A stretch of DNA of 64,000 nucleotides from Gammaproteobacteria bacterium (GTDB lineage: Bacteria; Pseudomonadota; Gammaproteobacteria; Steroidobacterales; Steroidobacteraceae): the NCBI GenBank assembly GCA_021323735.1, contig JAJPKM010000036.1:62001-126000 (forward strand). Reading direction: 5' to 3'. Under the pieces are notes generated by a model that did no database searches, had not been told where the DNA came from, and was given only the letters and a program-made list of their open reading frames with translations. Shown in pieces: positions 1,592-17,702 of this stretch. Numbering within the stretch: the stretch's first letter is position 1; each line of letters starts with the position of its first letter. The translations under genes were made by a program, and so were the position numbers.

Positions 1592-2437
1592 TCATAAAGG
1601 AAGCGGGATTAGTGCGGCCTCCCCCGCTATTGCGCCAAGCTCGTTGAGAGAGTCGATTTCTTTAAGCACGTCAGAAACGGTAAGGTCGAGTTCCGCGGCA
1701 AGTTGCGAAGCGGTCTTCGAGACGGCAAGGCGCGTAAATATCCGGGCGGCCCGCGCAGAGACCCCACAATGCGTGGGCAAAGCATCGGCGCTTGGAAGGT
1801 AGATCAGCCAATGCGATTCGACTCGCGCAAGCTTCGCCTCGCTGTCGAACATGAGAGGATTACGGAGCCACGGTGTTAGGTCGAAACGCGTCGATGTGAC
1901 AGTCACGGCATCGCTGGCAAGATATTGTTGCGTTTCCGGATAGGGCGCTAAACTTATTGCTGTATCCGGCCCAGAAGTCAGCGGTCGTTCCCCAAGACGT
2001 CGAACGAGCGTAATAGCGACGGCATCCATCGCCAGCGCGTCCTGCTGTATTTCGCCGGCGAATTCAGGTTGCCGGACGAGATACTCGACAAATGCGGCGG
2101 CAAGTCTCCATAAATTGGGACCGTCGTCACGGTACCCGATCGATTCCGTGAAGTCACGGGCCACTTCTCCCACATCCATGCTGCTGGTATGCAGGAGACG
2201 GCTGCTCAGTGGTGCCAGTTGGAGCGCGGAGAGTGCGTTTCTGACAAGGCCGCTCCGATACATGAAGATCGTCTGCAAGGTCGCGGCGCGGGTGCTCGCG
2301 TAATCGGCAAGAATCGTAGCCTCTATAGGTAAGAGGCCGAGCGACTCAAAATCGCTGGTGGGCTCGAGCGCGCCAACGAGATTGTCGCGGGTCAGGATGA
2401 GGCGCCATGTATCCCACACAAGATGAGCGTCCATCAA
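1592..2437 (-). CDS. Putative MNIO (DUF692) partner protein for peptide maturation
   Basis: A 281-residue protein whose start overlaps the end of the upstream DUF692-family gene by four bases, so the two are translationally coupled. MNIO enzymes (MbnB, TglH, ChrH) usually work with a second protein such as MbnC that helps bind the precursor, and position and size fit that role. The N-terminal two thirds are helical. The C-terminal part contains AVSKTASQLAAELDLTVSD and VLKEIDSLNELGAI, which resembles a winged helix of the kind used for leader-peptide recognition. I do not recognise a named family, so the partner role is inferred from context. It is the last gene of the leftward RiPP set. Confidence 0.6.
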   Translation of the reverse strand: MMDAHLVWDTWRLILTRDNLVGALEPTSDFESLGLLPIEATILADYASTRAATLQTIFMYRSGLVRNALSALQLAPLSSRLLHTSSMDVGEVARDFTESIGYRDDGPNLWRLAAAFVEYLVRQPEFAGEIQQDALAMDAVAITLVRRLGERPLTSGPDTAISLAPYPETQQYLASDAVTVTSTRFDLTPWLRNPLMFDSEAKLARVESHWLIYLPSADALPTHCGVSARAARIFTRLAVSKTASQLAAELDLTVSDVLKEIDSLNELGAIAGEAALIPLPL

Positions 2438-3354
2438 GCGGCTTCCTCACGCGTCGTCCTGCGACTTTTGGCGCCGTACGCGTGGTCCCACGCACGGCGT
2501 GCGCATTCCAGGTCGGCAAGAACGAGGTCGACGGACCGCGCGTGATCGAGTTTCTTGCCGTCCTCGAACAACAGATGCGACTCATATTCCAGGATCACTG
2601 CCCGGGGCCGTGAGCGTGAAAGAACATTATCGAGGAGCTCCCATACAGGTTTCGGGACAGCAGTATCGTGTAGGTCGTGGTATAGACCGTCCAGCGAGCG
2701 TCCCCCAGCAAGGTGAATTGCAATGATACGGTCGAGTGGGATCGTCGAAAGGAACCGCTCGATTGAGTAGCCACTAGCCACGTGGTTGATGGAGTTCGCA
2801 AAGAGGTTGTGCAAGTCGAGATGTAAATAAGTGCCAGACCGCTCAATCACTCGCGCTAGGAATTCTTCCTCTGGCATATTGCTCCCCGGGCAAGAGCGAT
2901 AGTACGCCGCATTCTCATGACCTAGGCAGACCCCATAGATTTCCTGAAGATTCCGCGCTCGCTCGGCCACTCGCGCTACTTCCGCTTTTGAGAACTGCAA
3001 TGGGCTGCTCCATACGTTGGCCCATGAGGCATCACTGTAGAAGCAGTGATTCGTCACCCACGGCACGCGAAAGCGTTTTGCCAAAGGCACGTGTCGGCGG
3101 ACTGCTGAGGTGGTCTCCAGCGGGTCGAATCCGAAGTCGCCACCGTAATTCGAGTGACCAACGAGCGCGCACTGAGTCGCTGCGCTGTCAAGCGTTTCTG
3201 CGGCATCGGGCCACATTAGCTGCGGACCATCGAGAGGAGCCATAATGCTGTCGAAGAGAATCTCCATTACATCTAGCGCTTGCTCCCGGAACGGGAACCA
3301 GGCAGCGAGCGCGGGGTTGTACTGAAGCCCTACTCCAAGCGTCGAAATCATCAT
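2434..3354 (-). CDS. DUF692/MNIO multinuclear non-heme iron oxidative enzyme
   Basis: A 306-residue TIM-barrel protein of the DUF692 (MNIO) family. These enzymes use two or three iron ions to rebuild residues, usually cysteine, in RiPP precursors (oxazolone/thioamide formation by MbnB, carbon excision by TglH). Family landmarks appear in order: ISTLGVGLQYNP at the start, VGHSNYGGDFGFD near residue 65, VTNHCFYSDASW near 100, YGVCLGHENAAYY near 140, LHLDLHNLFANSINH near 175, AIHLAGG near 210, then YHDLHDTAVPKPVWELL and VILEYESH. The His, Glu, Asn and Asp residues in these blocks are the expected metal ligands. It is coupled to the following partner gene. The substrate is not proven and could be the precursor at 13346 or a small ORF just upstream. 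Confidence 0.85.
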   Translation of the reverse strand: MMISTLGVGLQYNPALAAWFPFREQALDVMEILFDSIMAPLDGPQLMWPDAAETLDSAATQCALVGHSNYGGDFGFDPLETTSAVRRHVPLAKRFRVPWVTNHCFYSDASWANVWSSPLQFSKAEVARVAERARNLQEIYGVCLGHENAAYYRSCPGSNMPEEEFLARVIERSGTYLHLDLHNLFANSINHVASGYSIERFLSTIPLDRIIAIHLAGGRSLDGLYHDLHDTAVPKPVWELLDNVLSRSRPRAVILEYESHLLFEDGKKLDHARSVDLVLADLECARRAWDHAYGAKSRRTTREEAA

Positions 3355-3509
3355 TTAGGCATCCGACTGTGCCATTCGCAGATCCGTCTGTTTCGCATCA
3401 AATGAGTGACTCCTACGCCAAATTTCCTGTTAGCTGTGCGCGGCACTAGCGCTTGACCTGCGGTAGTTCCATCTTCAAGTGATAAAATCTCTTCGACTTC
3501 TGGTACCAA
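3351..3509 (-). CDS. Candidate small peptide gene (possible second precursor), TTG start
   Basis: A 52-codon frame begins at a TTG with an AGGAAA ribosome-binding site about five bases ahead. Its stop overlaps the ATG of the MNIO gene, a layout typical of coupled genes. The N-terminal half is acidic and leader-like (LVPEVEEILSLEDGTTAGQ). The C-terminal half is basic, with FGVGVTHLMRN and RRICEWHSRMPK and a single Cys. Precursors often sit directly upstream of their MNIO gene. The start codon is weak, no similarity is recognised, and a chance frame of this size is possible. Confidence 0.33.
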   Translation of the reverse strand: MVPEVEEILSLEDGTTAGQALVPRTANRKFGVGVTHLMRNRRICEWHSRMPK

Positions 3510-3870
3510 ACATTTCCTGTGTAAAGTCCATAAATGGCACTACTGCAGATGTGGTTGTGGATTCATCATGCCTAGAGCTAATCGCGACAAGTATCCGGAA
3601 GGTGCCCGCATTTACCCGCCCATGAAACTGAACTCAATCTTCTGAGCGTGCAATAACGGTAACAACGCAATCTCAGACTTCGAGGGCACTACGCTTAGTT
3701 TCAAGTTCGTATCGTCCTTGATATCTGATAATCCTCATTGGCGTGTCTAGCAAAGTAGCGCAGTGGCTGAGGCTGCGTCAATACGAACAAGCGTTTGCTA
3801 ATTCTAGCAGCTAAAACTACGGATTCGCTAAATTCGTGATGCATTATAAACCGCGTCCCACAGAACCACA
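3510..3870. other. AT-rich intergenic stretch upstream of the MNIO pair
   Basis: This lies between the HExxH gene and the MNIO-associated genes. It is AT-rich and holds a TATAAT-like hexamer on the minus strand (3843-3848). A 56-codon minus-strand frame (about 3700-3870, starting MWFCGTRFIM) is open but lacks a clear ribosome-binding site and recognisable similarity, so I do not call it a gene. The gap breaks the otherwise tight leftward gene set, which suggests the MNIO pair has its own promoter. Confidence 0.4.
3843..3848 (-). promoter_or_regulatory. Possible -10 element for the MNIO transcript
   Basis: On the minus strand the sequence reads TATAAT, a perfect -10 hexamer. A TTGATG lies 20 bases upstream, which is a longer spacing than ideal. 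It is placed to transcribe the small ORF, MNIO and partner genes. This is motif evidence only. Confidence 0.3.
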
Positions 3871-4998
3871 TCAACTACCTAATCTGAGGTATCGCATAAA
3901 CAATTGGCCATCCTCAGTCAATTCTTTGCTTTCTCCTATCGATCTGGACATCGTCTCAACGTCCTGCGCCAATGTAAGGGCTTCTCGCAGCAGATACGGG
4001 CTGGCCCGCCCTTCAGACTGAAGCAAAGCGATATAACGAGACATGTTCACGGCCGCGTGCAACGCCAAAAGCACGCTAATCAATGGTCTTGCGACCTTTT
4101 TGAATGGAGAAAAGTGCTGTTCGACGCTGCCTGGTATCACAACATTGACTGCATCAGTCATCGCAAAGAAATATTGATGCGAACATTCATGAATAATCAG
4201 CACAGCCAATTGTTCGGCGGGTATTGGATGGGACGCCCATATAAGCCCTGGCAGCGAGCGCGCACTTCCGCTCCCGGACATCCTTTCGCCCGCAGGTGCC
4301 AAGAAACTGATTCCTGCCAGCACCCGAGATATCCACGCAAAAATCTCTGGAGAATGCGTCCGTATGCAATTCAGCGCTTCACGCAGTGTGGTACGTCGGT
4401 CCTCGATGCTACTAAAACTGCACACGCCATCGCCCAATTTTGAAACTTCGGAATCAGCATCGTCCAGAACATTGCAACTAACGCCGATGTCGCCAATGCC
4501 TGGTAGTGCGCGGTTACCGTCGTCGCGAACCCAAAGTCCACATTGCTTTTCGAATGAGACGCGCGTGCGGATTTGCTCCCCCCTTTCCCATGTTAGCGAT
4601 ACTCGATCTTGAATGGCGTTGAAGCACACTCGCCCGTGAAGGAGTAATGGAAAAGAATCAAAGTAAAACACTGACCCGGGATCCACGTTACAAGTCCATG
4701 AGCCAAGTCCATTGTTAGCTGCGCATTGAAGAGCAATCTGGATAATATTCGATTCATCAGCGCTCGTATCGGCTAAGAGCCGCCCCAAGCCCGGCACCCA
4801 AGGCCGATTTGATCCCGTCAATGCTGAAAGACACCCGTTTATATACGAAAGCAAATCACCAATATTTTCAGGAAGCTCATGATTAGATGTGGCCCGACTG
4901 AGTGACCATAGCCACCGACGCCGCAAGTAGTCGTCGATCGGCTCCGACTGCCACCCGTGCCCGCCTGCTGCACTGCGAATCATTGCGTCAGTTGACAT
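3871..4998 (-). CDS. HExxH-type peptide beta-hydroxylase-like protein (first copy)
   Basis: A 375-residue protein with the metal-binding pattern AVLIIHECSHQYFF (His270, Glu271, His274) and a following helical half. The layout fits the HExxH-motif family annotated as alpha-ketoglutarate-dependent peptide beta-hydroxylases, which occurs in RiPP loci: a variable N-terminal alpha-helical part, a central HExxH near residue 270, then a long helical C-terminus with an Arg/Glu-rich end. Members are expected to be cytoplasmic and to hydroxylate beta carbons of core residues. It starts 12 bases after the stop of the MacB-like permease gene and so belongs to the leftward set. A second HExxH protein is at 15882. 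That they act on the same peptide is inferred. Confidence 0.7.
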   Translation of the reverse strand: MSTDAMIRSAAGGHGWQSEPIDDYLRRRWLWSLSRATSNHELPENIGDLLSYINGCLSALTGSNRPWVPGLGRLLADTSADESNIIQIALQCAANNGLGSWTCNVDPGSVFYFDSFPLLLHGRVCFNAIQDRVSLTWERGEQIRTRVSFEKQCGLWVRDDGNRALPGIGDIGVSCNVLDDADSEVSKLGDGVCSFSSIEDRRTTLREALNCIRTHSPEIFAWISRVLAGISFLAPAGERMSGSGSARSLPGLIWASHPIPAEQLAVLIIHECSHQYFFAMTDAVNVVIPGSVEQHFSPFKKVARPLISVLLALHAAVNMSRYIALLQSEGRASPYLLREALTLAQDVETMSRSIGESKELTEDGQLFMRYLRLGS

Positions 4999-5010
4999 CG
5001 GCTGACCTCT

Positions 5011-7392
5011 CTACTGGAGCGCTGAGCTCAAATCGACCAGATCACTATTAAGTAGGCGCCTCGTCAAAACAATGCAAAATGCGCTTATTGCCAGCAGACA
5101 AGAAGCCCAGAGTGCCAAACTCAACGACAAATTTTCCGCGAAGAATCCGCCGAACATTCGAGCCCCGGCGAAGTGGGACGCTAATAGTAATGCGCAAGAT
5201 ACCAAGCATGCGATCCCAATTCCCACGAACGTATTTGCCACCAACGAATGCAACAAGGGACCTACTTCAGCTCCCAATGAGGCTTTTATTAGTGTGTATC
5301 GACGGCTTTCCGCATAGTTATTCGTCACGCTAAGATAGACAATGAGCGCGGCGATCCCGAGTGCCACGGCGAAGCTAATTGCCGCTACCAATGTTTGAAA
5401 TAAGCCACGATTCAAGGCTCTAAAATATGTATCGCTCAACGGCTCAACACTTTCAACAAACAGCTCACTGTCTACCGAATGAATTATTGCGGTAATGTCG
5501 ATGGCGCTCGGGTGTTCGCCTGCCCTATTGGTGAGCAATAACGAAATGTCCGTGGCCTCTGGAAAGAACTCAATGGGGACATAAGCTTGGAATTGCTTAC
5601 TGCGGTCGCTGCGGAAGGGGTTTTGGACATCATCAACCACGCCCACGATCTTAAACACATTATGGGCAATCTGCATGTCCTCGCCCAAATAAGGACCGAA
5701 CGGAAACAGAGTGTCCTTCAAGCTTTTACTGATAATGGCCACCCGTTGATTCTCGTTAGTCTCTTCGCGAGTGAACATTCTACCGACGGGCCGCAAGCCT
5801 AGGAGGTCTAGATAGCTGTCATCCACACCTGTCACGTTAACCATCAAAGAACTATTCCCTTTCAATCGTTGTACTTTCGACAGGGTGAAGCTGGGTGATA
5901 AGGGGAGAAGATCCGCATACGCGATTGTGGCATGCAGCGGCGATTCTTGAAATTTTGATCTGATTTTTTCCGCGACGAGACGCTTCGCGTCCGTAGACTG
6001 TAGTCTCTCCGGGAGATCTACTTGAACGGCGGTAACGCCCGCTGTACTGAAGCCAACCGAGAGCGTCAATTTTTGTACCAACCCAACGATCGCAAATGAG
6101 GTGAGCAGTATAGACACGGTAACCAGCACGAACTGAATCCCTATGACCCAGCGATTGACAGCTGCGTGCGCTGGCCCGGCGCTTCCCTTTACACCAGCGG
6201 TAAGCATCGCAGTAGTCGTGCGATTGATACGCACGACCACTGCGATTGCAATGATAATAAAGGCGGCACCTACAAGTGCGAAGAAGCCTACAAAGAAGCG
6301 CACGTCTAATCCGGCCTCTGCAATACGGGGAATTGCATCAGCGAATGATCGCTTCAAGGCGGACATGGTTATTGCAGCAAGAATCAAAGAAAGGACACAT
6401 GCAACTGCCACGCCGATACTTAGATCCGCGATTGTTTCGATCACCAGCATGCGACGCGTCGCCCCAAGAACATGCTTGATAAACTGAGTACGCCAACGAG
6501 TTGAAAGAATTGACACTATGTATTGTGCAACTACAGAGCACACCAGAACATATATCAAGTAGGAGGACATCAGAAATACGGCGGCGGTTATCGCAGATGT
6601 TCCCAAAATAGTTTCTCTTAGAGGGGACACCGCGATAGATAATTGTGTGCCGTGAGGAAAGACGTTCACCGTCTCCGCTTTCACGCTCGGTAAGGCCACC
6701 GATGTGAGTCTGGTCTCCGCTTCAGAAAACCCTTTCTCGTTGGGAAGCAAGGCAAAAATCTTCAAGGAACTCCCGAACCCAGAACGGTTGCCGTAGTCTA
6801 GAGGTGCACGCTTTAGAGGTAGCCAAACGTCTTCGGGTCGCCCTGCCAAGGCGAGTGGTGAAGCGTATTGCGGGTCAACGATTTGCAATACTCGATAATC
6901 GGTATTGTCGATTTTAAGGAACTGGGGGGCAGGACCCCGAAGAATCCGATCGTAGAGTGAACGTCGGACTATTACGACATCTTCCTGCGACTCAAAGGCT
7001 CGTAGCCACTGATCCCCGGCGCCGCGGGGAGTGCCAAATATGCGGAAATAATTTGCATCCACATATGAAGCGCGGACGATGCGATCGATTCCGCCAAGTC
7101 GAAGGCGTCGATTTTTTGACACTAAAAATGCAGTTTGAACATCCGGCTTGAGTAAATCCGACCATTCCTTGGCAACCGCGGCATTATTGCCAGGAAAAAC
7201 GCCGGCCTTGTTTGCAATCATGAGACGAATCTCGGCGAGGCGGTCGGCATTTTGAAACGGCAGCGGTGCAACTAGGAGAAGCGATGCTATCGACTGAGTC
7301 ACGCTCGTTATGGCCAATGAAAGCGCAATGCAAGTCACCACAATCGACATCATTTTGAGATGAGGTCTTAGGCGCCGAGAAATTTCAAGCAC
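5011..7392 (-). CDS. MacB/FtsX-type ABC transporter permease
   Basis: A 793-residue inner-membrane permease. A first membrane helix (about residues 14-40) is followed by a periplasmic MacB-like domain (to about 265), three helices in the middle FtsX block (about 270-400), another helix near 415-440, a second periplasmic domain, and a C-terminal FtsX block with three helices (about 675-785). This double-FtsX layout is that of the large ABC-type antimicrobial-peptide permeases. The ATPase and HlyD-like adaptor genes lie just upstream on the same strand, giving adaptor-ATPase-permease order. With TolC at 17835 it could export the mature peptide from the periplasm or give self-resistance; the choice is not decided by sequence. 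Confidence 0.85.
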   Translation of the reverse strand: MLEISRRLRPHLKMMSIVVTCIALSLAITSVTQSIASLLLVAPLPFQNADRLAEIRLMIANKAGVFPGNNAAVAKEWSDLLKPDVQTAFLVSKNRRLRLGGIDRIVRASYVDANYFRIFGTPRGAGDQWLRAFESQEDVVIVRRSLYDRILRGPAPQFLKIDNTDYRVLQIVDPQYASPLALAGRPEDVWLPLKRAPLDYGNRSGFGSSLKIFALLPNEKGFSEAETRLTSVALPSVKAETVNVFPHGTQLSIAVSPLRETILGTSAITAAVFLMSSYLIYVLVCSVVAQYIVSILSTRWRTQFIKHVLGATRRMLVIETIADLSIGVAVACVLSLILAAITMSALKRSFADAIPRIAEAGLDVRFFVGFFALVGAAFIIIAIAVVVRINRTTTAMLTAGVKGSAGPAHAAVNRWVIGIQFVLVTVSILLTSFAIVGLVQKLTLSVGFSTAGVTAVQVDLPERLQSTDAKRLVAEKIRSKFQESPLHATIAYADLLPLSPSFTLSKVQRLKGNSSLMVNVTGVDDSYLDLLGLRPVGRMFTREETNENQRVAIISKSLKDTLFPFGPYLGEDMQIAHNVFKIVGVVDDVQNPFRSDRSKQFQAYVPIEFFPEATDISLLLTNRAGEHPSAIDITAIIHSVDSELFVESVEPLSDTYFRALNRGLFQTLVAAISFAVALGIAALIVYLSVTNNYAESRRYTLIKASLGAEVGPLLHSLVANTFVGIGIACLVSCALLLASHFAGARMFGGFFAENLSLSLALWASCLLAISAFCIVLTRRLLNSDLVDLSSALQ

Positions 7393-7415
7393 AGGTATGC
7401 ACTCCGTCAGCCTAA

Positions 7416-8087
7416 CTAGCCAGCGAGTTGGCCGTCAGTCATGTGAAGAGACCGTCGCGATCGCGTGGCGCAAGTCTCATCGTGTGTAACATTAATAATT
7501 GTCATGGTAGGCGACAGAATCTCATCTAGCAGATTCAACAGTTCATCGCGCGTCTGTGAATCAAGACTGCCAGTCGGTTCGTCAAGCAGCAGCATCAAGG
7601 GATTCGTGGCAAGTGCACGTGCGATGGCGACGCGCTGCTGCTGCCCACCGGAGAGTTCTCTGGGGTAGTGTGAGGCCCTGTGTGCGAGACCGAGGCGCGC
7701 TATGCAATTGTCAATATAGTCGTGAGGCACTTGCTTGCCGTCACTTCTGTATTTAAATGGCAGACGGACATTTTCGAGCACCGTTAGCTCGTCAATCAGA
7801 TTGTAGTTTTGAAAAACGAATCCAATTTTCCTGTTTCTAATTCGTGCCCGTTCATCGATCGACAGCTCAGCCATATTTTGTCCGTCAAATAAGTATTGAC
7901 CGCTTGAGGGAGCAGAAAGAAGCCCAAGAATGTACAAGAGCGTTGACTTGCCAGATCCAGATACACCCGCAATCGAAACATATTCCCCCCGCCCAATCTT
8001 CACGTCGACACCGCGCAACGCATGGGTCTCCACAAATTGAGTTCGATACACCTTCGTCACTCCCGCGAGATCTATCAAGTCACTCAT
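7416..8087 (-). CDS. MacB/LolD-family ABC transporter ATP-binding protein
   Basis: An ATPase of 223 residues from the ATG at 8087 (MSDLIDLAGVTKVYRT); an in-frame ATG five codons upstream precedes the GGGAAGG that could serve as the ribosome-binding site. Walker A is GVSGSGKSTLLYILG, the Q-loop lies in GFVFQNYNLI, the signature is LSGGQQQRVAIARALA, Walker B is LMLLLDEPTGSLDS, and the switch His is in INVTHDE. These are typical of the subfamily that powers MacB, LolCDE and FtsX-like permeases by mechanotransmission. It sits 24 bases before the permease gene and is surely its partner. Confidence 0.92.
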   Translation of the reverse strand: MSDLIDLAGVTKVYRTQFVETHALRGVDVKIGRGEYVSIAGVSGSGKSTLLYILGLLSAPSSGQYLFDGQNMAELSIDERARIRNRKIGFVFQNYNLIDELTVLENVRLPFKYRSDGKQVPHDYIDNCIARLGLAHRASHYPRELSGGQQQRVAIARALATNPLMLLLDEPTGSLDSQTRDELLNLLDEILSPTMTIINVTHDETCATRSRRSLHMTDGQLAG

Positions 8088-8205
8088 GAACCTTCCCGGC
8101 AATTAGCGTTTGTAAGATGGTGTCCGCGTCCCGCCCACCTAACCGGGCCCGACGCTTGCCTGTCGTGTTTCCAGTTCGACCTATCTGCACTGTTCGAGCA
8201 CCGAA

Positions 8206-9453
8206 CTAGAGAGAATGGGCGCTGTCAGCGACAGGCTTAGGCTTCTCAAGAATCAACTTATCGCCCACGGTGATGCCCGTTCCTTGAATTTCGACGGTGT
8301 CCGGTGAGCCGGTGCCAAAATGCACAAGCTGGCGCTCAATCGTTCCGTTGAGGTGCACAACTTGCGCATAGCCAGAAGTGTTGGGATCGACACCTGGAAT
8401 ACGCGTTACGTAAAGCTTCCCCGGCTGCCGATCAACCGCAATTTCGCCAGTGAGCGCCTCATTTGGCTTAGGGGCGAAGCCTTCGCTCGCTGGAAAATCC
8501 AGATCCACGGAAACCAAGCCATCGAGTACGCGTGGATTAAGATTTATTACTTTGGCTCGTACCTGCCGGCCGTTGACATTCAGAACAGCAGAAGACCCAA
8601 GCACTATCCCTTCTGTAGAGTTTTGAGAAACACGTAGCGTCGCTACCAAGGTATCCGGATCGGCAATCGTCGCGAGTTTTTCGCCTTCGGCGACGAATTC
8701 CCCGGGGGAAATGAGAATTTCTTGCACAACCCCAGGGGCCGTCGCCAGAACGTTTAGGGATTGTACCGCGGTATCCGCGTCAGCCAGGTTTCGGCGCGCC
8801 ATATCCACGGCCTTGTTGCCCAACGCAACCTGCACCGCGGATATTCGTTGCATGTCCTCTAGCGCCTTCTTCTCCAGTTCAAGCTTTCGGCTCATTTTCT
8901 CAACCGTAACTTGCGAGCGAGCCAAATCGAAGCGCGAAAAGATGTGCTGGCCATCGAGGCTTTGCTTAGCCTCCAACTCGTGTTTGGCGATCTCCAAGTC
9001 TGCCTGTACGTCTAAAACGTTTTCGATTTGCCGATCATTCTGCGTTTTCGACTGAAACTCCAACGCCGCTAAGTCCGCTTCCGCTGACTGAAGTTTGAGC
9101 TTACTCTCGATAAGTAGTTTTTCAGACGTGGAATCAGTCAATGCAATGAGCAAATCCCCCTTATGCATTCGTGCACCTGGTTCCACGGCGATTTGTTTCA
9201 CACGTGATTTGGTCGGAGCAATAATTGTGAGCGTTTGTCTCGGTTTAAACTCACCTACTCCTGGTACTTGATAGCTAACGGAACCCGATCTTACGACAGC
9301 TTCGACATTTTGAGCGCTCACTTTAGTGTTTGAAGGTAATTGCAGAAAATAGAAACTGGCAACTCCTACAACAGCGAATCCACAGGCGAATAGGAGGCTC
9401 ATCCTGGTCGCTACTTTGAATCTCCTTTTTGGACGATCTATCGGAAAATCCAT
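8206..9453 (-). CDS. HlyD/MacA-type periplasmic adaptor of the efflux pump
   Basis: A protein of 415 residues from the ATG at 9453; a TTG further up is in frame but ATG with GAGAAG upstream is preferred. A cytoplasmic start DFPIDRPKRRFKVATR is followed by one membrane helix (about residues 18-40). Then come a biotinyl-lipoyl half (GEFKPRQTLTIIAPTKSRV, GARMHKGDLLIALTD), a long coiled coil (about 105-225), the second lipoyl half (ATAPGVVQEILISPGEFVAEG), and beta-barrel and membrane-proximal domains. This is the usual layout of adaptors that join an inner-membrane ABC pump to TolC. It precedes the ATPase and permease genes. Confidence 0.88.
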   Translation of the reverse strand: MDFPIDRPKRRFKVATRMSLLFACGFAVVGVASFYFLQLPSNTKVSAQNVEAVVRSGSVSYQVPGVGEFKPRQTLTIIAPTKSRVKQIAVEPGARMHKGDLLIALTDSTSEKLLIESKLKLQSAEADLAALEFQSKTQNDRQIENVLDVQADLEIAKHELEAKQSLDGQHIFSRFDLARSQVTVEKMSRKLELEKKALEDMQRISAVQVALGNKAVDMARRNLADADTAVQSLNVLATAPGVVQEILISPGEFVAEGEKLATIADPDTLVATLRVSQNSTEGIVLGSSAVLNVNGRQVRAKVINLNPRVLDGLVSVDLDFPASEGFAPKPNEALTGEIAVDRQPGKLYVTRIPGVDPNTSGYAQVVHLNGTIERQLVHFGTGSPDTVEIQGTGITVGDKLILEKPKPVADSAHSL

Positions 9454-9508
9454 AATCTTCTCGGCAGAAACGAACCCCAATCAGCCAGCGTTTTTAGGCT
9501 GCTGCGAA

Positions 9509-9967: not shown

Positions 9968-11255
9968 GCGGATCCTGTTGGGTAGTAGGCATATTCGATC
10001 CAATGTTGTCGCAGTCCGAGGGGTTGCGCGGCAAACTGCCGCATCGACGTGCGTTGGATTGGAACAAGGGACGCAAAAGCCAGGAATTGCGCACGCCGGC
10101 GGAAAGCACAAGGAGATCCCCTTCGGAGAGCAGTCCGAGCTCACTATGACTGCGAAACGTCGCTTGGATCTGCTGCTCTGATAAGTCCATAAGCTGACAA
10201 AGCACCATAAGGTGCCAGTCTTCTGATAATGGCGAGCCGAGTAGACCCAAATCCGATAGTCTCCTAATCCAAATCGTAATCAACGTGATCGGATCCTTGC
10301 GCGGAAATCGCTTTGCCACGCAGTCTCGGATTGATCGTCCATCCGGTATGTTGCGCAGGAGCGCTAGAAAAAACTGCAGTTCAGCATCTTTCGTACTCCG
10401 ATACAGGCCGAGTAGGCGATTGCTGCATTTGTAGAGCCAAAGCACTGAAATCAATTCTTCCGCAAGAGATGGATGCGCGCGTTTGAGAGCCGCCACCAGC
10501 TGTGTCCGCTGCTCGTCATCTTCTATCAAATTAAGCGTCGTCAGAAGAATCTGAAAAACAGTATAAGCATCTTTGGTTTCAACCGCTTCAAGCGCCAGCC
10601 GCATAAAACCAACCATATCACCGATCGAAATTAGCATTTTCAAAAGCTGACATTGGCGCGTTACCGAGGGGATGCCATTTGTGAAAGCGATGCAAGGTGG
10701 CAGCAGTGTGTATTGTGGCTGGCTGTCAGCATCCAGTATGGTTCTCGCCACTATGCTGATAGTAGGACGATCAAGGTGATACGTTGCGTGATACAAGCCG
10801 CAACCCGCAACGATCGGCCGAACGTCACCTGCACTTAGCAATTCCGCTGTCTTGAATGATACGTATCCAAGCAAAAGCCGCAGCTCTAGCCGCATCTTTG
10901 GTTGAAAATCCCACACGCTATGAATGCTGGAACCGCGAAGCACCTGAAACGCACCGGAGAAAGAGTGCTGGTGTATTGATGGTGTTCCTTCGGTCCAAAA
11001 AAGGATGTCTATTCGAAACTTACGACCAATAAATACGGTAAGCGGGGGGTCGCCGAATTTAGCGTCGATATCCGCCTGATAGGGCAATGCATCCTCACGC
11101 ACTGCCCAAGTCAATATTTCCCGCATATCGACGTTCAGATGCGCCGATTTTTGCGCTAGGCACCTGCAAGCAACTTCAGGAAAGCTTCGCTCATCGTAGT
11201 TGTGAATCTTCCACTCTGCATTTATTTGAGAACCGAGTTCTGTGAAAAACTGCAT
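9945..11255 (-). CDS. Uncharacterised 436-residue protein with a cupin-like segment
   Basis: No named family is recognised. The N-terminal third is beta-rich. The block SIHQHSFSGAFQVLRGSSIHS (around residue 95) has the spaced histidines and glycines of a cupin metal site, and further strands run to about residue 190. The rest is alpha-helical with repeat-like helices (DAYTVFQILLTTLNLIEDDE, RAHPSLAEELISVLWLYKC). No signal peptide is seen, so it is probably cytoplasmic. It lies between the membrane-fusion protein and the small secreted protein of the RiPP operon. A metal-dependent tailoring, sensing or scaffold role is conceivable; the sequence does not choose. Confidence 0.55.
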   Translation of the reverse strand: MQFFTELGSQINAEWKIHNYDERSFPEVACRCLAQKSAHLNVDMREILTWAVREDALPYQADIDAKFGDPPLTVFIGRKFRIDILFWTEGTPSIHQHSFSGAFQVLRGSSIHSVWDFQPKMRLELRLLLGYVSFKTAELLSAGDVRPIVAGCGLYHATYHLDRPTISIVARTILDADSQPQYTLLPPCIAFTNGIPSVTRQCQLLKMLISIGDMVGFMRLALEAVETKDAYTVFQILLTTLNLIEDDEQRTQLVAALKRAHPSLAEELISVLWLYKCSNRLLGLYRSTKDAELQFFLALLRNIPDGRSIRDCVAKRFPRKDPITLITIWIRRLSDLGLLGSPLSEDWHLMVLCQLMDLSEQQIQATFRSHSELGLLSEGDLLVLSAGVRNSWLLRPLFQSNARRCGSLPRNPSDCDNIGSNMPTTQQDPHENTVHS

Positions 11256-11424
11256 TGCGCGTCACCGTTACACTGTCGTTATTACGATCATGAAATGAGT
11301 ACGCCTGGCCTTGCGGGCCTCATGCCACATTTGAGGAGCGGCGGTATAACAGATGTGTATGCAACAGCGCTTTTTTAACAACGCAGGTGATATGTGCTCT
11401 CCAAAACACGCAGTCTTCACGATA

Positions 11425-11946
11425 CTACTTCGCTCTTCCAATCGAATTGATGCGACGCCGGATGAGGTCGGCAAGAGATACTTCTCCGTTCGGGATAACA
11501 AGCGCCACAATTCTGGACGCTTGCACTGGTTCCGAAAGGATAATGGTAACCTTCACGGTGTTACCCGCAGCCGACGAAGCTCCGGTAGATATGAAAGCTA
11601 TGTTAGTTCGGTGGATGCAAACGTAAGGAACGCGGCACGTCGATAGAACCTCCGCGGGTAATTTGATCGTACCACTCAACTTATTAGCAGCCACTTCCAT
11701 CTTGTACGAATAGGGTGATGCTCCGACAAGGTCCTGTGAGGCGGCTGTCACCTCAAAAGACTCGACCATGGGAACATGACTGAAGAAGAGCAACCATACG
11801 ACAACTGCCGCCAATACAACCCACCATCCCGCGATAGTAGCGGGGCTCCGAGTGTGCAGAATCGAAGCAAGACCGATGTGAGGATGCTTCTGAGCCTCGA
11901 TCGCTTCGGGTCGAAAAACATCGCTCAGTTCAGGATAATCGTCCAT
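11425..11946 (-). CDS. Shortened HlyD-like membrane-fusion protein
   Basis: A 173-residue protein beginning 7 bases after the radical SAM gene. The start DVFRPEAIEAQKHPHIG followed by one membrane helix (about residues 40-56) is the opening of bacteriocin-export membrane-fusion proteins, which typically begin with FRPEA. Those proteins normally have about 400 residues with lipoyl and coiled-coil domains. Here only about 110 beta-rich residues follow, with no coiled coil, and the protein ends RRRINSIGRAK. It probably pairs with the C39-peptidase ABC transporter at 13609. It may be a minimal adaptor or depend on another protein to reach TolC. Confidence 0.6.
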   Translation of the reverse strand: MDDYPELSDVFRPEAIEAQKHPHIGLASILHTRSPATIAGWWVVLAAVVVWLLFFSHVPMVESFEVTAASQDLVGASPYSYKMEVAANKLSGTIKLPAEVLSTCRVPYVCIHRTNIAFISTGASSAAGNTVKVTIILSEPVQASRIVALVIPNGEVSLADLIRRRINSIGRAK

Positions 11947-11953
11947 CGTGAGC

Positions 11954-13219
11954 TTAGATGATTGCAGACGGCTTTTTCGCTAGGCGACTGTTGAGTTGAT
12001 TGAAGTCGCCTCCAGCGAGCATGAGGGTTTCACAGGCGCCACTGTAAAGTGTCTTCAGGCTTTCACAATGTACCGAGCAATTATTGAATCCATTGTCAGA
12101 GCTGTAGCGGTGGTAAAGAATTCCGCCCCGACAAACGTTTACCCAATTGCAACTCATGCAATCGGCTGGCACGGAATAGCTAAGATCATTCAAGCGTGCC
12201 AGTGCTGGTGAGAGCAACAAATCCTTTAGCGTCGAAGTAATTACGTTCAACCCGGTGTTCATTAAATCCGGGTCTGTGGTTCGAAGTACGTCCTCAGGCT
12301 GGATTTCGCCGCTGCTGGCAACTACAAAAACGATTTCCTTCTGAGACAGAAATCGTTGTAGCAGGGAGGCGTGAATAGGTAAAACCCTTAATTCGCGTAG
12401 CGCAGAATCCACTATTCGAACCTTAACGCCGGCATCTAGTTCTTGACGGTATAAGGTGAGTAGCTCGGAAACGAATTTTGTAATTTTATCGATTTCGCTT
12501 TTGGTGCGGGTATTGTGGTCCAAATCGGGCAACAGAAAATCGACATTCTTGAACGATAACGTCTTGATGCAATGGTGGTATATTTCATCAGCAGTAAATT
12601 CGGGATTGATCACGGCAAGCAGGCCGGGTGCTGCTTGGAGTCTTCCATCGGAATGCGCATTCTGAAGAAGACGAACCCCCTGGAGTACTCTGTCATATGT
12701 GCCGCGACCGCGTTTATCGACCCGGTACTTGTCGTGAATCCACTTTGGTCCATCGAGACTCACGCCCACAGTTACGCGATGCTGCTTGAATATCTCAATC
12801 CACTCTTCGTCCACCAGCATGGCATTCGTTTGGAGCGTCACTTGGAACTCCATACCGCTGCATGCTTCACCTATCTTCACCAGCAGTTGAGTCATTCGGC
12901 TCTTCTTTAGGAGCAAGGGTTCGCCCCCATGAAGAATCAACCGGACCCGACGTAGATCGTAGGAACGGCGTCCCTCGCTCAAAAAACGCGCCAGACCATC
13001 CACAACGTCATCGTGGATGTAAGCCGGATGTGATTTATACGATTCATCCCCGGCGAAGAAAAAATAGCAATAAGTGCATGCGATATTGCAGCGCTCGGTA
13101 ATCTTGAGAATGATTTCCATGCCTGCGCCCGCCCCGAAACGCATATCGCGTTCAAACTGATCGGGCGGGTACGAGGAAGCGATGCCAAATTTAGTTGAGG
13201 CGTTCAAGACCACATCCAT
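11954..13219 (-). CDS. Radical SAM/SPASM peptide maturase, XyeB/GrrM-like (cyclophane-forming type)
   Basis: A 421-residue radical SAM enzyme. The cluster-binding motif is ERCNIACTYCYFF (Cys44, Cys48, Cys51), of the CxxxCxYC form seen in XyeB, GrrM and FxsB maturases. LILHGGEPLL is the usual SAM-binding GGEP. A C-terminal SPASM domain holds two auxiliary Fe-S clusters (ADCMSCNWVNVCRGG, then NNCSVHC). Characterised relatives join an aromatic side chain to the beta carbon of the residue two places later, giving three-residue cyclophanes. The precursor 126 bases upstream has FCK and WGQ, which fit that rule. The start is uncertain: the ATG used has AAGG directly in front, and ATG codons at residues 26 and 34 are alternatives. 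It acts in the cytoplasm. Confidence 0.9.
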   Translation of the reverse strand: MDVVLNASTKFGIASSYPPDQFERDMRFGAGAGMEIILKITERCNIACTYCYFFFAGDESYKSHPAYIHDDVVDGLARFLSEGRRSYDLRRVRLILHGGEPLLLKKSRMTQLLVKIGEACSGMEFQVTLQTNAMLVDEEWIEIFKQHRVTVGVSLDGPKWIHDKYRVDKRGRGTYDRVLQGVRLLQNAHSDGRLQAAPGLLAVINPEFTADEIYHHCIKTLSFKNVDFLLPDLDHNTRTKSEIDKITKFVSELLTLYRQELDAGVKVRIVDSALRELRVLPIHASLLQRFLSQKEIVFVVASSGEIQPEDVLRTTDPDLMNTGLNVITSTLKDLLLSPALARLNDLSYSVPADCMSCNWVNVCRGGILYHRYSSDNGFNNCSVHCESLKTLYSGACETLMLAGGDFNQLNSRLAKKPSAII

Positions 13220-13280
13220 CCTTAGGTGCAGACTTCAAAAATTGGCTGGCAAATTGAAATGACAGTAAGCCAGATATTGC

Positions 13281-13313
13281 AAAAGATCGGTCGCCCAATA
13301 CGGGCGACCGATC
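13281..13313 (-). terminator. Hairpin terminator/attenuator after the precursor gene
   Basis: A perfect 12-bp inverted repeat (13285-13296 with 13302-13313) with a 5-base loop is followed on the minus strand by TTTT. It starts about 33 bases after the precursor stop and ends about 60 before the radical SAM gene. A leaky terminator or stabilising stem here would give far more precursor mRNA than enzyme mRNA, as in many RiPP operons. Confidence 0.8.
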
Positions 13314-13345
13314 AATGGTCCCATGACCCAGACCAGACTAGGCTT

Positions 13346-13519
13346 TCAATTCGGTTCGCATTGACCCCAGCAAGCCTTACAGAATAGCCCCAAACCGCCA
13401 AACGTCATTTGGCCGATCTTCTCTCTCATTGCGGGGGATACTTCTTGCAGTGGGTTAGGTCCCGGTGACTCTGCTCGCGCAGCGTCTAACTTCCGCTTAA
13501 GCTCCTCTAAAATCGACAT
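13346..13519 (-). CDS. RiPP precursor peptide, 57 residues
   Basis: The start at 13519 is chosen because AAGGAAGGG lies about eight bases before this ATG; upstream in-frame ATGs have none. The leader is charged and helical (MSILEELKRKLDAARAES, then PAMREKIGQ). A double glycine in QMTFGG fits cleavage by the C39 peptidase of the adjacent exporter and would release LGLFCKACWGQCEPN. This core holds two aromatic-X-X triplets, F-C-K and W-G-Q, matching the rule for three-residue cyclophanes made by XyeB/GrrM-type enzymes. Its three cysteines could be targets for the MNIO enzyme or disulfides. It lies between the exporter and the radical SAM gene and is followed by a hairpin. The cleavage site and the modified residues are inferred. 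Confidence 0.85.
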   Translation of the reverse strand: MSILEELKRKLDAARAESPGPNPLQEVSPAMREKIGQMTFGGLGLFCKACWGQCEPN

Positions 13520-13608
13520 GGGTTTGCCCTTCCTTAGTAAGTCCATTGATGAATCGCCTCGCCGAATTACCAACAGCAACCAGCGCGACGAACCCAGCTT
13601 GATGTTAC

Positions 13609-15816
13609 TTAATCCATTTGAAGGGCGCAACCTGGATTTCGGCTACCAATCGTACCGAAGGTAGGTCCCATAGCACGCGGCTGCATCGCGGCGAGGTTGA
13701 TGATCTGTGTTGCATCTTTCAAAACTTCCGTTCGATGCGTCGCATGTATTACGGATATATTGAGCTTGCGCAGATTGGCCAGCACATTCAACTCGGTGTC
13801 GACGTCAAGATTTGCAGTGCCCTCGTCCAGAATTAAGAGTGGCGCACCGCGATATAGCGCTCTGGCTATAAGGATTCGCTGCACTTCTCCTGCCGAGAGC
13901 AATTGACTAAATTCACCCATCTGAGTGTCGTATCTCATTGGGAGCAAATTAATACGTTGCTGAATACACGCTTCCTGTGCAGCCTGACGCATTCTTGCCT
14001 CGTCGATTCCAATCGACCCGAAGCAGATATTCTCTCGGATCGTACCACTAAACAATTGCTGGCCTTGCAGCACGACCGCAACGCGAGTGAGCCAGAGGTC
14101 ACGCGGAATACTGGACAGTTCATGACCGCTTATTTTAATAGTACCTTGATAACCTGCCTTTAAGCCGAGGAGGATATAGAGGAGCGTGGTCTTGCCGGCA
14201 CCTGAATGACCCGTAACCGCAACTCGGTCTCCCATTTTTATTTCAAAATTGAGTGGGGAAAACAGGCCCGACTGCGATTGCGGAAAGGTATATTGTAAGT
14301 CTTTCGCCACAATCGTTGGGGCGCCAAGGTCAACATAATTGGATTCGACAAATCCCGCCTGATATGCAGGCTCTTGTTTTTCCAACAGAATATCGGAGAG
14401 CCTATCGAGGTGGATTCTTGCTAGTCGAAGCTTGAATATAACGTCGATTATCGTCTGGCCGCTGTCCCAGTAGAGTCGCTTATACATGAAGTAGGCCATC
14501 ACCATTCCGATTGTCATTTGGCTCGACATCATGAAATGCGCGGCCAAGAACAGTGAGAATATATTTTCCAGCTGAGTACTACGATCTCGCGCTAATCGCA
14601 GCTTCTCCAGCGATACATCTGTAAAGTACTGACTCTTGGTGGTTTCGGCAACATGCTGCCGCCAGTCTCCCGTGCGGAACGCCTCGGCATTTTGGGCTTT
14701 AACGCTGACTATGCTTCTCACGGTATCGAGGAAATACGCGGCTGCTTGCGCGCGCTTCACAAACGTATTCTCGAAATGCAGGCGATACTGGCTGTAAGTA
14801 ATTAAGCGAAAGCAAACATACATCGCCAATACAAAAGTTACGAGCCCTGTTAATAGGACGCTGTAACTACATAGAACGACAAGTGTCGTAGTGAACATTA
14901 CCGCACTTACCAGAATGCGCGGCAGTTCCTTAGTAAATATCTCGCGAATCTCCGTCATCGATTCAATTTTCGCCGCAAGGTTTGAAGAATCTCGCGACTC
15001 GAAAAATTCGATCGGAAGCCGGAGCATGTGTCGAAAAATGGACGTTGAAAAATTGGCGTTGAGAAGCGCTCCAAGTTGTGCGTTCAGATTCATCCGGCCG
15101 GTTTCAGTCACCCATTCCGCGAATCCCAAGCAAAGGAATATCGTGGCGATATAATAAAGAAAGAGAATGCTCCGCATTTGAATGACATTATCGACAATCA
15201 GCTGAAAGTAATAAGGAGCGATCAGCGCAAACACTTGGGACAATAACGCGAAAAGAATCAATAGCCCTATGCGAGGCTTCTGATCCGAAACGGTTTTGAA
15301 CATACTCGTCAGACGAATTCTTCGAGTATCCGAGGACCGCGCAAATTGAAGCGTCGGAGAAAGCTGCGCGGCAACGCCGGTGAAGCATGAGTCCGCTTCA
15401 GCATAACTGTGCGCCACTGCGCCCCGCGCTGGATCATGAATGAATATTTTTGTCTTCGAAGTCCGCGTTAGTACTACAAAGTGTGAGAAATTCCAATGCA
15501 GGATCGCGGGTTTGTTTATCCATTTGAGATCGCGGGGTTCGATTCGGAAGAGACGCGAAGAAAAATTGAGCCGGTCGGCAGCCTTTAGCAAGCTTTCTAA
15601 CGTCATGCCGAATCTCTGGGCGCCAAACATATCTCTCAATGACTTTAAATCCACGTCTCTGCCATGATGGCTAGCAATCATGGCTAGGCACGCCAACCCG
15701 CATTCTGCGTTGCATGTCTGCAGAATCACTGGAGGGCTGTGTCGAGAGAATATCCGGGTCACCCGGCCACGTGCGCGTTGCAACAAACTTGAGAACCACT
15801 GTCTTCTTGCCATCAC
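13609..15816 (-). CDS. Peptidase-containing ABC transporter (C39 domain, PCAT)
   Basis: A 735-residue exporter that cuts leader peptides after a double glycine and moves the core across the inner membrane. The N-terminal C39 peptidase has LQTCNAECGLACLAMIA (catalytic Cys39), HWNFSHFVVL (His112) and FIHDPA (Asp128). A six-helix membrane domain (about residues 180-460) follows, then an ATPase with VTGHSGAGKTTLL, LSAGEVQRILIARALY, LLILDEGTANLD and a switch His in HATHR. The GTG at 15816 and the ATG at 15813 both follow an AGGAAG. It is the first gene of the leftward set, and the precursor begins 89 bases after its stop. Its outward partner is probably the short fusion protein at 11425, with TolC. 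Confidence 0.93.
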   Translation of the reverse strand: MMARRQWFSSLLQRARGRVTRIFSRHSPPVILQTCNAECGLACLAMIASHHGRDVDLKSLRDMFGAQRFGMTLESLLKAADRLNFSSRLFRIEPRDLKWINKPAILHWNFSHFVVLTRTSKTKIFIHDPARGAVAHSYAEADSCFTGVAAQLSPTLQFARSSDTRRIRLTSMFKTVSDQKPRIGLLILFALLSQVFALIAPYYFQLIVDNVIQMRSILFLYYIATIFLCLGFAEWVTETGRMNLNAQLGALLNANFSTSIFRHMLRLPIEFFESRDSSNLAAKIESMTEIREIFTKELPRILVSAVMFTTTLVVLCSYSVLLTGLVTFVLAMYVCFRLITYSQYRLHFENTFVKRAQAAAYFLDTVRSIVSVKAQNAEAFRTGDWRQHVAETTKSQYFTDVSLEKLRLARDRSTQLENIFSLFLAAHFMMSSQMTIGMVMAYFMYKRLYWDSGQTIIDVIFKLRLARIHLDRLSDILLEKQEPAYQAGFVESNYVDLGAPTIVAKDLQYTFPQSQSGLFSPLNFEIKMGDRVAVTGHSGAGKTTLLYILLGLKAGYQGTIKISGHELSSIPRDLWLTRVAVVLQGQQLFSGTIRENICFGSIGIDEARMRQAAQEACIQQRINLLPMRYDTQMGEFSQLLSAGEVQRILIARALYRGAPLLILDEGTANLDVDTELNVLANLRKLNISVIHATHRTEVLKDATQIINLAAMQPRAMGPTFGTIGSRNPGCALQMD

Positions 15817-15881
15817 AGCATTACTTCCTGTACATTTCGATAGCCCGGGGGTGGAGATTTGGTAGCAAGGAGGCCTGACAC

Positions 15882-17051
15882 ATGCGTTACGACTCGCCTA
15901 ATACAATAACAGCCGACCTCGTTGCATCGCTAGAGTGGGCTACTAATCAACAGTACTCAACTGTGTGTAAAGAGCAGCGGACAAACGTTCTTTTGTTCGC
16001 GTTAAACAAATGCCTTGCGGAATCAACACGGGCTGAATCACGATTTCGTTGTCTGATCGATCGATGCAATGAAGCTAGCTTTGATCGATTCTTAAATGCT
16101 CCAAGTCTTTGGCAGGTCGTCACAACTAGGGATGCGAACACGCTTCCTTTGCTGGAAAGGATGATTGATGATGAAATTCGTGTGATTGATGCGATTGAAT
16201 ACTCTGTAGCTCACGCGAGTGTTCCGGTCCTTGAGATGGACTCGCTGCCGCCGAATTGCATTTGGGACGCCTGCGGTCTACACGCGGTTGACGCAAACGT
16301 GCAGCCCGGGAGAGTCCTGTACCAAAACGCTACCATTTCCGGAACGCTATTTGCCGATGCCGCGAGCATATGGGTGCGCGATGCGCTTCCCGACATTCCT
16401 ACAAAAAGCGATCCGTATAATGCTTCCGATTACAGGAAAAGCGTCAGCAAACTTAGCGATGCAGCTGCGCTGTTGGCGCGCTTCGTTCCGGGTGCCTGGA
16501 CGTTTGTCGAGCAACTCACCAGAGTGGTCGTACTCAAATGCGATGCCGACGTTATAAAGGGTGGATTTGTATCGGCTTCCACACCATTGTGCACCGGGCG
16601 ACCGGTCTTGCAAAACCCACACGCCGATTTTGTGAATGTCGAAATGCTCGCAGACGCCCTTCTGCACGAGAGTATTCATTCTGCGTTTGACGCAGCAGAG
16701 TATTTTGATACAAAGCTGCCGGAACGCGATACCGCTCACCGCTTAGCGTCGCCTTGGACAGGGAAACAGCTAGACCCAAATACTTATATTCAGGCGTCCT
16801 ATGTTTGGTTTGGGCTATTTAACTTTTGGGCAAGCGCGTTGTCGCAGTCGCCCGAGACCTGGCCTCGAGCACAAAAGTTGTTTCAAAAAACCGCCCGCGG
16901 CTTTCGAGACTCCACATTTCTCAGTCGAGCTCGCGCGAGGGCAGATCTATATGATCAGGAAACTCTTGGCGCGCTTGAGTTTATTGCGCACAGTGCCAGC
17001 CGGACGTTACAAGGTTTAGGCCAGGGGCTATTGGTTTCCCAAGCAAGCTAG
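15882..17051 (+). CDS. HExxH-type peptide beta-hydroxylase-like protein (second copy)
   Basis: A 389-residue protein transcribed away from the exporter, with a strong CAAGGAGG ribosome-binding site. The motif ADALLHESIHSAFD gives His262, Glu263 and His266 at nearly the same place as in the other HExxH protein (270-274). Both have a helical N-terminal half, a Gly/Pro-containing stretch before the motif, and a long helical C-terminal half ending in charged helices. The two share little obvious sequence beyond this, so they are diverged members, not a recent duplication. It probably modifies the same precursor at another residue. The 65-base gap to the exporter gene must hold divergent promoters. 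Its 3' end overlaps the converging gene by 24 bases. Confidence 0.65.
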   Translation: MRYDSPNTITADLVASLEWATNQQYSTVCKEQRTNVLLFALNKCLAESTRAESRFRCLIDRCNEASFDRFLNAPSLWQVVTTRDANTLPLLERMIDDEIRVIDAIEYSVAHASVPVLEMDSLPPNCIWDACGLHAVDANVQPGRVLYQNATISGTLFADAASIWVRDALPDIPTKSDPYNASDYRKSVSKLSDAAALLARFVPGAWTFVEQLTRVVVLKCDADVIKGGFVSASTPLCTGRPVLQNPHADFVNVEMLADALLHESIHSAFDAAEYFDTKLPERDTAHRLASPWTGKQLDPNTYIQASYVWFGLFNFWASALSQSPETWPRAQKLFQKTARGFRDSTFLSRARARADLYDQETLGALEFIAHSASRTLQGLGQGLLVSQAS

Positions 17052-17702
17052 GTTTCCCGCCAACTCGACGGGTGATTGCATCGATGCCGGATTGACTTTG
17101 AAGAACCCTTTAATCCGCAATACTTCGGTTTCGCTACACCACCGCGAACAGACGACATCTTCTGGAACCAACAAAGCTTGACCCGGTTGTACGGAAAAGT
17201 GCGCTTGTGTAGTCGGCGCTAGCGTTTCGAACGCCTCTACGGATATGAACAATTCCGGTCGAATTCCATCTAGCTGTTTTCGGACAGCCTCATCTAATTG
17301 TTCACTCATAAGAGAAATCGGTAGCAGGTTTACATCTACCTCCAGTGGAATTTCCCCTAGAGGCAGGTATAAGGCGTTTGGGCCACGGTATCTATCCCGA
17401 AGGCTAAAGCCCATGAAGTTATACAATGCGTACTCGGGGCGAGAGACAGTTCTTGTTCGCTCGATTGCGACTACCGGACCAATGCGAATTATGCTTGAAA
17501 TTGCAGAGATCAAGTGGTTGACAGACTGCACCAATTCATGGGCTGGTACGTGATCATCCGCGATAGAACGATTTGGAAACTCGGTTAAATTAGAGAACGA
17601 GGAAACTAGCTCTTTGGAGACTTCTATGACTGCTACATCACGGCAGTAAACGTGCAATGCTACCGAGTGCGGTGGCGTAAGACTGTGTGCAACTAGTGAC
17701 AT
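17028..17702 (-). CDS. Uncharacterised protein converging on the second HExxH gene
   Basis: A 224-residue protein. The ATG at 17702 is chosen because AGGAAG stands seven bases ahead; a start seven codons upstream has no such site. No family is recognised. It is soluble, mixed alpha/beta, with SVALHVYCRDVAVIEVSK, an acidic middle, YALYNFMGFSLRDRYRGP, and a C-terminal part (AHFSVQPGQALLVPEDVV) that could be a small beta-barrel. It overlaps the HExxH gene tail to tail. A role in the RiPP pathway, such as regulation or immunity, is inferred only from position. Confidence 0.5.
   Translation of the reverse strand: MSLVAHSLTPPHSVALHVYCRDVAVIEVSKELVSSFSNLTEFPNRSIADDHVPAHELVQSVNHLISAISSIIRIGPVVAIERTRTVSRPEYALYNFMGFSLRDRYRGPNALYLPLGEIPLEVDVNLLPISLMSEQLDEAVRKQLDGIRPELFISVEAFETLAPTTQAHFSVQPGQALLVPEDVVCSRWCSETEVLRIKGFFKVNPASMQSPVELAGNLACLGNQ

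Follow-up and report, generated by a model that had tools for sequence, protein, structure and literature searches.

A RiPP locus on a probable integrative conjugative element: most likely a composite of a cyclophane-type core gene set and a TglH-type MNIO pair

The stretch of DNA analysed here, hereafter the window, comprises 64,000 nucleotides of a Steroidobacteraceae bacterium (Gammaproteobacteria; assembly GCA_021323735.1, contig JAJPKM010000036.1, positions 62,001 to 126,000) and carries a locus for a ribosomally synthesized and post-translationally modified peptide (RiPP). The locus is most likely a composite, in which a core gene set and a gene pair encoding a multinuclear non-heme iron oxidative enzyme (MNIO) and its partner are carried by an integrative conjugative element. 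Window positions 3871-17051 hold a double-glycine precursor, an XyeB-like SPASM radical S-adenosylmethionine (SAM) enzyme, two proteins of the alpha-ketoglutarate (aKG)-HExxH family (HExxH1 and HExxH2), a C39 exporter, and a MacB/Dar-like pump. The genes are on the minus strand except for HExxH2 and a TolC gene, which are both on the plus strand. The radical SAM enzyme, the HExxH proteins, the C39 exporter, and the precursor very probably form one RiPP pathway. The reading we prefer is that the MNIO pair acts in this same pathway, on the three-cysteine core of the precursor, and we put its probability at about 0.47. A previous sequence-only reading had listed the genes of the locus, and each of them proved to be present at or inside the position assigned to it.

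The precursor (13346-13519, minus strand) was read as an open reading frame (ORF) of 57 residues with a putative Gly-Gly cleavage site. Its ATG start lies at 13519 and is preceded by the stretch 'aaggaagg'. The C-terminal part reads TFGG|LGLFCKACWGQCEPN, with LGLFCKACWGQCEPN as the putative core. Three cysteines, at positions 47, 50, and 54, fall within these 15 residues, and the peptide ends with CEPN and so has no C-terminal cysteine. The genome yielded no second copy of this gene. The core contains two aromatic-x-x motifs, FCK and WGQ, which we take to be candidate cyclophane sites on the basis of an assumed motif rule. The exporter (13609-15816, minus strand) has a C39 peptidase domain (PF03412, 114.6 bits) together with PF00664 and PF00005, and scores 408 bits against TIGR03796, under the cut-off of 853. 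With this peptidase domain and the predicted cleavage site TFGG|LGLF before the core, the locus has both features of a double-glycine/C39 system.

The radical SAM enzyme (11954-13219, minus strand) finds its best NCBIfam match in TIGR04496 XyeB at 298.2 bits (E 7e-89), which does not reach the equivalog cut-off of 450. YhhB and FxsB follow in the ranking and are under their cut-offs as well, and the enzyme is therefore regarded as a divergent relative of XyeB rather than an XyeB equivalog. Pfam assigns PF04055 Radical_SAM (57 bits) and Fer4_12 only. The CxxxCxxC motif lies at residues 44/48/51 and cysteines of the SPASM region at 354/357/363/381/385.

HExxH1 (3871-4998, minus strand, motif HECSH) belongs to the aKG-HExxH-type peptide hydroxylase family, with 84.8 bits against TIGR04267 (cut-off 40). 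For HExxH2 (15882-17051, plus strand, motif HESIH) the score is 37.7 bits, or 40.1 bits with its neighbours in the frame, so that its family membership is borderline. Both TIGR04267 matches of the 4.19-Mb genome fall in this locus. The HECSHQY form of HExxH1 is the same as that of the HExxH proteins linked to a radical SAM enzyme and a C39 exporter in two comparison loci (L038 and L039). HExxH2 instead shares its SPW form with a radical SAM-linked protein from Rhizobium (L026), to which it is 34.7% identical over 167 residues. As each form occurs beside such radical SAM enzymes, two HExxH subtypes meet in this locus. An alignment of 11 sequences showed that both proteins keep a conserved proline, usually as SP, downstream of HExxH.

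Relatives of the whole cluster were sought with the radical SAM enzyme as query. None was found in 216 other genomes of the family (E 1e-30), whereas the class gave matches in three of 368 others (E 1e-40) and the phylum in four of 397 others (E 1e-50), at 27-37% identity. A plasmid search returned 202 records, the best among the matches listed having about 36% identity. Eleven loci with such relatives were compared. HExxH proteins occur in three of them (L026, L038, L039), a full-length C39 exporter in four (L024, L038, L039, L040), and both together in L038 and L039. Eight cores beside these enzymes were picked by eye among the matches listed; six have no cysteine and the remaining two have 2 Cys in 25 or 40 residues. 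No core was chosen for L026, L027, L028, or L037 (the last a 5.9-kb contig), and one further candidate in L040 was excluded. Given that L038 and L039 each combine radical SAM, HExxH, and C39 genes, and that L026 has its radical SAM enzyme next to a relative of HExxH2, these components are taken to serve one precursor. The core cluster is thus of a known kind, its radical SAM, HExxH, and C39 genes recurring together in two other genomes. Cyclophanes and hydroxylations in the core peptide would be expected from the enzyme families. The sequence-only reading had all enzymes of the locus modify one peptide; the recurrence in L038, L039, and L026 bears this out for the radical SAM enzyme, the HExxH proteins, and the exporter, but a place of the MNIO pair in the pathway is not shown.

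The MNIO (2434-3354, minus strand) matches PF05114 at 137.5 bits (cut-off 25) and is 52% identical to TglH (8hci_D). All nine Fe ligands of TglH, as listed in the available text of PMC10880893, are kept (H67, H103, E147, D180, N183, H214, D227, H229, and E256). A generic HvfB/BufB type was rejected, since TglH is the closest solved relative (E 3e-106 versus 3e-14 for the next); the NCBIfam MNIO models that were matched (HvfB, BufB, ApyH, and ChrH) all stay far under cut-off. The enzyme is one of two PF05114 matches of the genome, and the second (378 bits) lies on another contig at 37944-38723 (L001). The partner gene (1592-2437, minus strand) scores 54.4 bits against NF058584 TglI, under the cut-off of 450, and gives a phmmer match to 8hci_C (E 1e-12). 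Its product has a helical N-terminal domain and a C-terminal domain of the RiPP recognition element type, and is 42-50% identical to the partners in nine related loci. An AlphaFold model of the partner (pLDDT 85) aligns in Foldseek with TglI 8hi7_A (TM 0.81/0.84), which predicts a TglI-like fold.

Ten relatives of the MNIO, at 66-69% identity, were collected: nine from an 84,980-species collection, which was scanned with two peptide patterns that more distant MNIOs would escape, and one from a plasmid search. A search with the MNIO at E 1e-50 had no match in the class (0 of 368 other genomes), and a search of viral contigs had none either. Flanks of up to 10 kb were searched with the window proteins as queries (E 1e-3), a setting that divergent HExxH or radical SAM proteins could escape; L009, L011, and L013 end at contig ends. 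A TglI-like partner is present in all ten. The MNIO of the window branches outside the clade that these relatives form, with 66-69% identity to its members compared with 71-99% within it. In one FastTree tree it shares a branch with TglH (a segment without its ends) outside this clade, with a support of 0.95. A recent break-away of the MNIO pair from the cluster of these relatives is unsupported, since in this one tree the MNIO lies outside the clade.

That cluster is an observation in its own right. It is found in Burkholderia, Paraburkholderia, Bradyrhizobium, and several metagenome-assembled genomes (L004 and L006-L014, e.g., L014:9698-15927), and consists of a Cys-Ala repeat precursor, a TglH-type MNIO, a TglI-like partner, a methyltransferase-domain protein, and a HemW/HutW-like radical SAM protein. 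The precursors have about 70-83 residues, with repeats such as KCAATAA and starts like MDVKKLSVKEA; in six of nine, 31 of 37 cysteine spacings are 7 residues. The methyltransferase-domain protein and the HemW/HutW-like radical SAM protein are encoded in L014. L007 and L010-L013 contain frames with similar radical SAM-like starts, and the annotation of the B. stagnalis record (L004) lists methyltransferases along with a radical SAM protein. No description of the cluster was found in the literature searched, and this family represents a second, directly testable lead.

Several observations speak for a role of the MNIO pair in the core pathway. Its frames are intact, the MNIO keeps all nine TglH Fe ligands, and the pair lies on the same strand as HExxH1 at a distance of 516 bp. 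With 3 Cys in 15 residues, the core is richer in cysteine than the eight cores picked beside relatives of the radical SAM enzyme. The window's genome yielded no Cys-Ala repeat precursor (four matches at E of at least 0.03, three of them with internal stops), which leaves the three-cysteine core as the best remaining substrate candidate. As the MNIO lies outside the Cys-Ala clade, there is room for another substrate. The spacing from C47 to C54 of the core is 7, as in the Cys-Ala repeats, which may be chance and is suggestive only.

Other observations speak against this role. The sequence-only reading had proposed a check for conserved co-occurrence, and its outcome leans away from a shared pathway. 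A Cys-Ala repeat precursor frame lies upstream of the MNIO in 9/9 relatives with upstream DNA (L011 begins 91 bases before its MNIO and is hence uninformative), and an XyeB-type radical SAM enzyme, HExxH protein, or C39 peptidase was found in the examined flanks of 0/10; L007 gave one match to the C39 query, in the ATPase part only. Conversely, none of the 11 radical SAM-relative loci has an MNIO, and an MNIO and an XyeB-like radical SAM enzyme occur together in 0/16 HExxH loci other than that of the window, a count that other radical SAM types would escape and in which L062 runs into the end of its contig. In L062, an MNIO-matching frame of about 650 residues adjoins the HExxH gene and could be the published MNIO-nitroreductase fusion, judged by its length. 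The whole gene set was found in no other locus, and nothing can therefore be learned from its conservation. The pair also differs from the core in composition (57.1-57.7% GC and 61-63% at third codon positions (GC3), against 49-52% GC and GC3 51-54), is separated from HExxH1 by the 516-bp gap, and is flanked on the side away from the core by a LysR fragment and conjugation genes. TglHI is described in the available text of PMC9016710 as acting on a C-terminal cysteine, and the precursor here ends differently. Lastly, a small ORF with four cysteines in the gap could be a private substrate of the MNIO. The missing Cys-Ala precursor, the GC contents of 57% and 49-52%, the gap, and the neighbourhoods of the relatives suggest that the MNIO pair was probably acquired separately from the core.

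The strongest competitor to the preferred reading takes the two parts as mere neighbours. The radical SAM, HExxH, and C39 genes would then make up a full cyclophane RiPP system by themselves, with the MNIO pair as an unrelated fragment of cargo whose own precursor was lost or never present. We consider this a tentative but substantial alternative. It gains from the Cys-Ala precursors of the relatives, several of which also have methyltransferase-domain proteins and a HemW-like radical SAM protein, from the absence of such a precursor among the matches in the window's genome, and from the GC step at the boundary of the pair. A 591-residue protein used as a query likewise had only two weak matches in this genome, within residues 386-496 (the methyltransferase domain according to NCBIfam). 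However, both frames and the iron ligands of the MNIO pair are intact, its position outside the Cys-Ala clade argues against a recent break-away, and the core peptide is rich in cysteine. A private precursor in the gap has little chance of being the explanation. The gap (3355-3870, 516 bp, 47% GC) contains five same-strand ORFs of 26-57 residues, of which two come into question: an ORF of 30 residues with a TTG start and 4 Cys (3578-3670), upstream of the MNIO on the same strand, and one of 52 residues with a TTG start (3351-3509), which ends in an ATGA overlap with the start of the MNIO gene and has a possible Shine-Dalgarno sequence by eye. Of 1000 first-order randomised gaps, 19 contained an ORF with four or more cysteines at such density (a post hoc test), which makes a private substrate possible. 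Against this, 245 of the 1000 contained an ORF of at least 25 residues with four or more cysteines irrespective of density, and 487 of 1000 contained one of at least 52 residues. The start of the four-cysteine ORF matched loci of its own genome only, the gap has no similarity to related MNIO loci, and neither ORF has a leader or the heptad cysteine spacing of the Cys-Ala precursors.

It is highly unlikely that the HExxH proteins are proteases for leader removal or immunity rather than hydroxylases. HExxH is the classical metalloprotease motif, and PflC, a member of the same family, cleaves the peptide backbone according to the available text of PMC12636437. But both proteins are assigned to TIGR04267, firmly for HExxH1 and on the borderline for HExxH2, both share an SP-x motif after HExxH, and a C39 peptidase is already available to remove the leader.

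In the preferred reading, the pathway could proceed as follows. After binding of the leader, the radical SAM enzyme would introduce one or two cyclophanes of three residues each into the core, with FCK and WGQ as candidate sites, and the HExxH proteins would hydroxylate core residues. The recruited MNIO pair would modify at least one of the three cysteines, which is the uncertain step; its most likely reaction would be that of TglHI, in which the cysteine beta-carbon is lost (-14 Da) and a mercaptoglycine-type residue is left. The C39 protein would cleave after Gly-Gly and export the peptide, and the MacB-like pump with TolC may expel the product or confer immunity. The complete scheme, in which a 15-residue core is crosslinked by a SPASM radical SAM enzyme, hydroxylated by two distinct HExxH enzymes, and stripped of the beta-carbons of internal cysteines by a captured TglHI-type MNIO, is unlikely to hold in full. 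If true, it would yield a cyclophane peptide that also contains mercaptoglycine-type residues. Such a chemotype was not found in the openly licensed literature searched. Mobile DNA would then have brought a carbon-excising iron enzyme to a cyclophane peptide, a compact route to a new chemotype. If the MNIO does not act on the core, the locus is a clear caution against assigning genes to one pathway because they lie side by side on a mobile element.

Among known systems, the cyclophane RiPPs of the XyeB/FxsB type (triceptides, including those with a fused radical SAM-HExxH protein of the ChlB type) resemble the locus in radical SAM family and short precursor, as well as in an aKG-HExxH partner and a C39 exporter such as those in L038 and L039. 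The locus differs from them in the divergence of its radical SAM enzyme (298 of 450 bits), two HExxH subtypes, a cysteine-rich core, and the adjoining MNIO pair. The TglHI/TmoHI pearlin enzymes are alike in the MNIO and in the predicted TglI-like fold of the partner, whereas the pearlin substrate has the C-terminal cysteine that the precursor here lacks. A search for PF04738 (lantibiotic dehydratase/PEARL) gave no match in this genome and none in control genomes either.

The sequence-only reading also knew of no described system with this set of enzymes. For the exact set this agrees with the openly licensed literature searched, in which the pairing of a SPASM cyclophane enzyme with a TglH-type MNIO was not found either. 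The claim was nevertheless too strong in view of biphenomycin (bip/bpm), where, according to the available text of PMC12707348 and PMC12257519, a single precursor is served by an MNIO with its partner, a B12-dependent radical SAM enzyme, and an enzyme of the aKG-HExxH family. As far as that text goes, the biphenomycin pathway differs in its B12-dependent radical SAM enzyme, an MNIO acting on Phe, an arginase, a JmjC hydroxylase, a TldD protease, and a major facilitator superfamily transporter, and neither a SPASM cyclophane enzyme nor a C39 exporter is among the genes listed for it. The radical SAM enzyme of the window is not of the B12-dependent kind, having only the two Pfam domains given above and XyeB/YhhB/FxsB first in NCBIfam. 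An MNIO and an aKG-HExxH protein also share a cluster in the pfl/pos and pes RiPPs (PMC12636437, PMC13060819). In the available text of these sources, no cyclophane radical SAM enzyme is among the listed genes, the pfl MNIO is a nitroreductase fusion, and both MNIOs hydroxylate Asp.

The setting of the locus appears to be mobile. Conjugation genes reach window position 818 (L031), with TrbE and TrbI assigned by Pfam, and an integrase gene (27865-29400) adjoins an odd tRNA-like call (29513-29603). Given these Trb genes and the integrase near the tRNA-like call, an integrative conjugative element most likely carries the cluster. The signs of this probable element lie in window positions 1-29600 and in L031, and the RiPP genes would be its low-GC cargo. 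To the right of about 36 kb, GC is 60-67%, and this part is therefore taken as chromosome. The LysR gene fragment beside the conjugation genes (879-1442) has a normal helix-turn-helix part followed by what by eye is a seemingly unrelated frame. A promoter scan gave fewer sites than in shuffled sequences, and a terminator scan about as many.

The pump is encoded by three minus-strand genes: an ADOP/MacB-like permease (5011-7392; TIGR03434, 189 bits, cut-off 622), an ABC ATPase (7416-8102; best match DarD NF038007, 215 bits, cut-off 375), and an HlyD/RND-type periplasmic adaptor (8206-9480; TIGR01730 RND_mfp, 59 bits, cut-off 95). It is similar to the darobactin exporter DarBCD in its ATPase, and the permease and adaptor give weak DarB and DarC matches of 24 bits. 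It differs in that all matches are under cut-off and that the permease scores higher as ADOP and the adaptor as RND_mfp.

Three features go beyond the gene list of the sequence-only reading. The TolC-family outer membrane protein (17835-19256, plus strand) has PF02321 and reaches 260 bits against TIGR01844, above the cut-off of 225. An orphan protein of 436 residues (9945-11255, minus strand) belongs to no confident family and had no match in PDB, plasmids, viral contigs, or 59 other genomes (0/59), and an AlphaFold model with no relatives in the input had a pLDDT of 37. A cupin-like HxH...G...H pattern is visible by eye in its N-terminal part, and it could be one more metalloenzyme. An orphan ORF of 231 residues (17028-17723) lies opposite to HExxH2, with no family match and no plasmid match. 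Between the pump adaptor and the 436-residue orphan gene, an ORF at 9509-10144 has a signal-peptide-like stretch, CSAC near its end, and no family match. A short membrane-anchored protein (11425-11946, minus strand), with no family match in the NCBIfam and Pfam scans, was read by eye as what may be a truncated adaptor that works with the C39 exporter. An S9-type peptidase is encoded at 19369-21378, with below-cut-off matches to Dpp5 (117 bits) and a lasso peptide isopeptidase (73 bits, cut-off 400).

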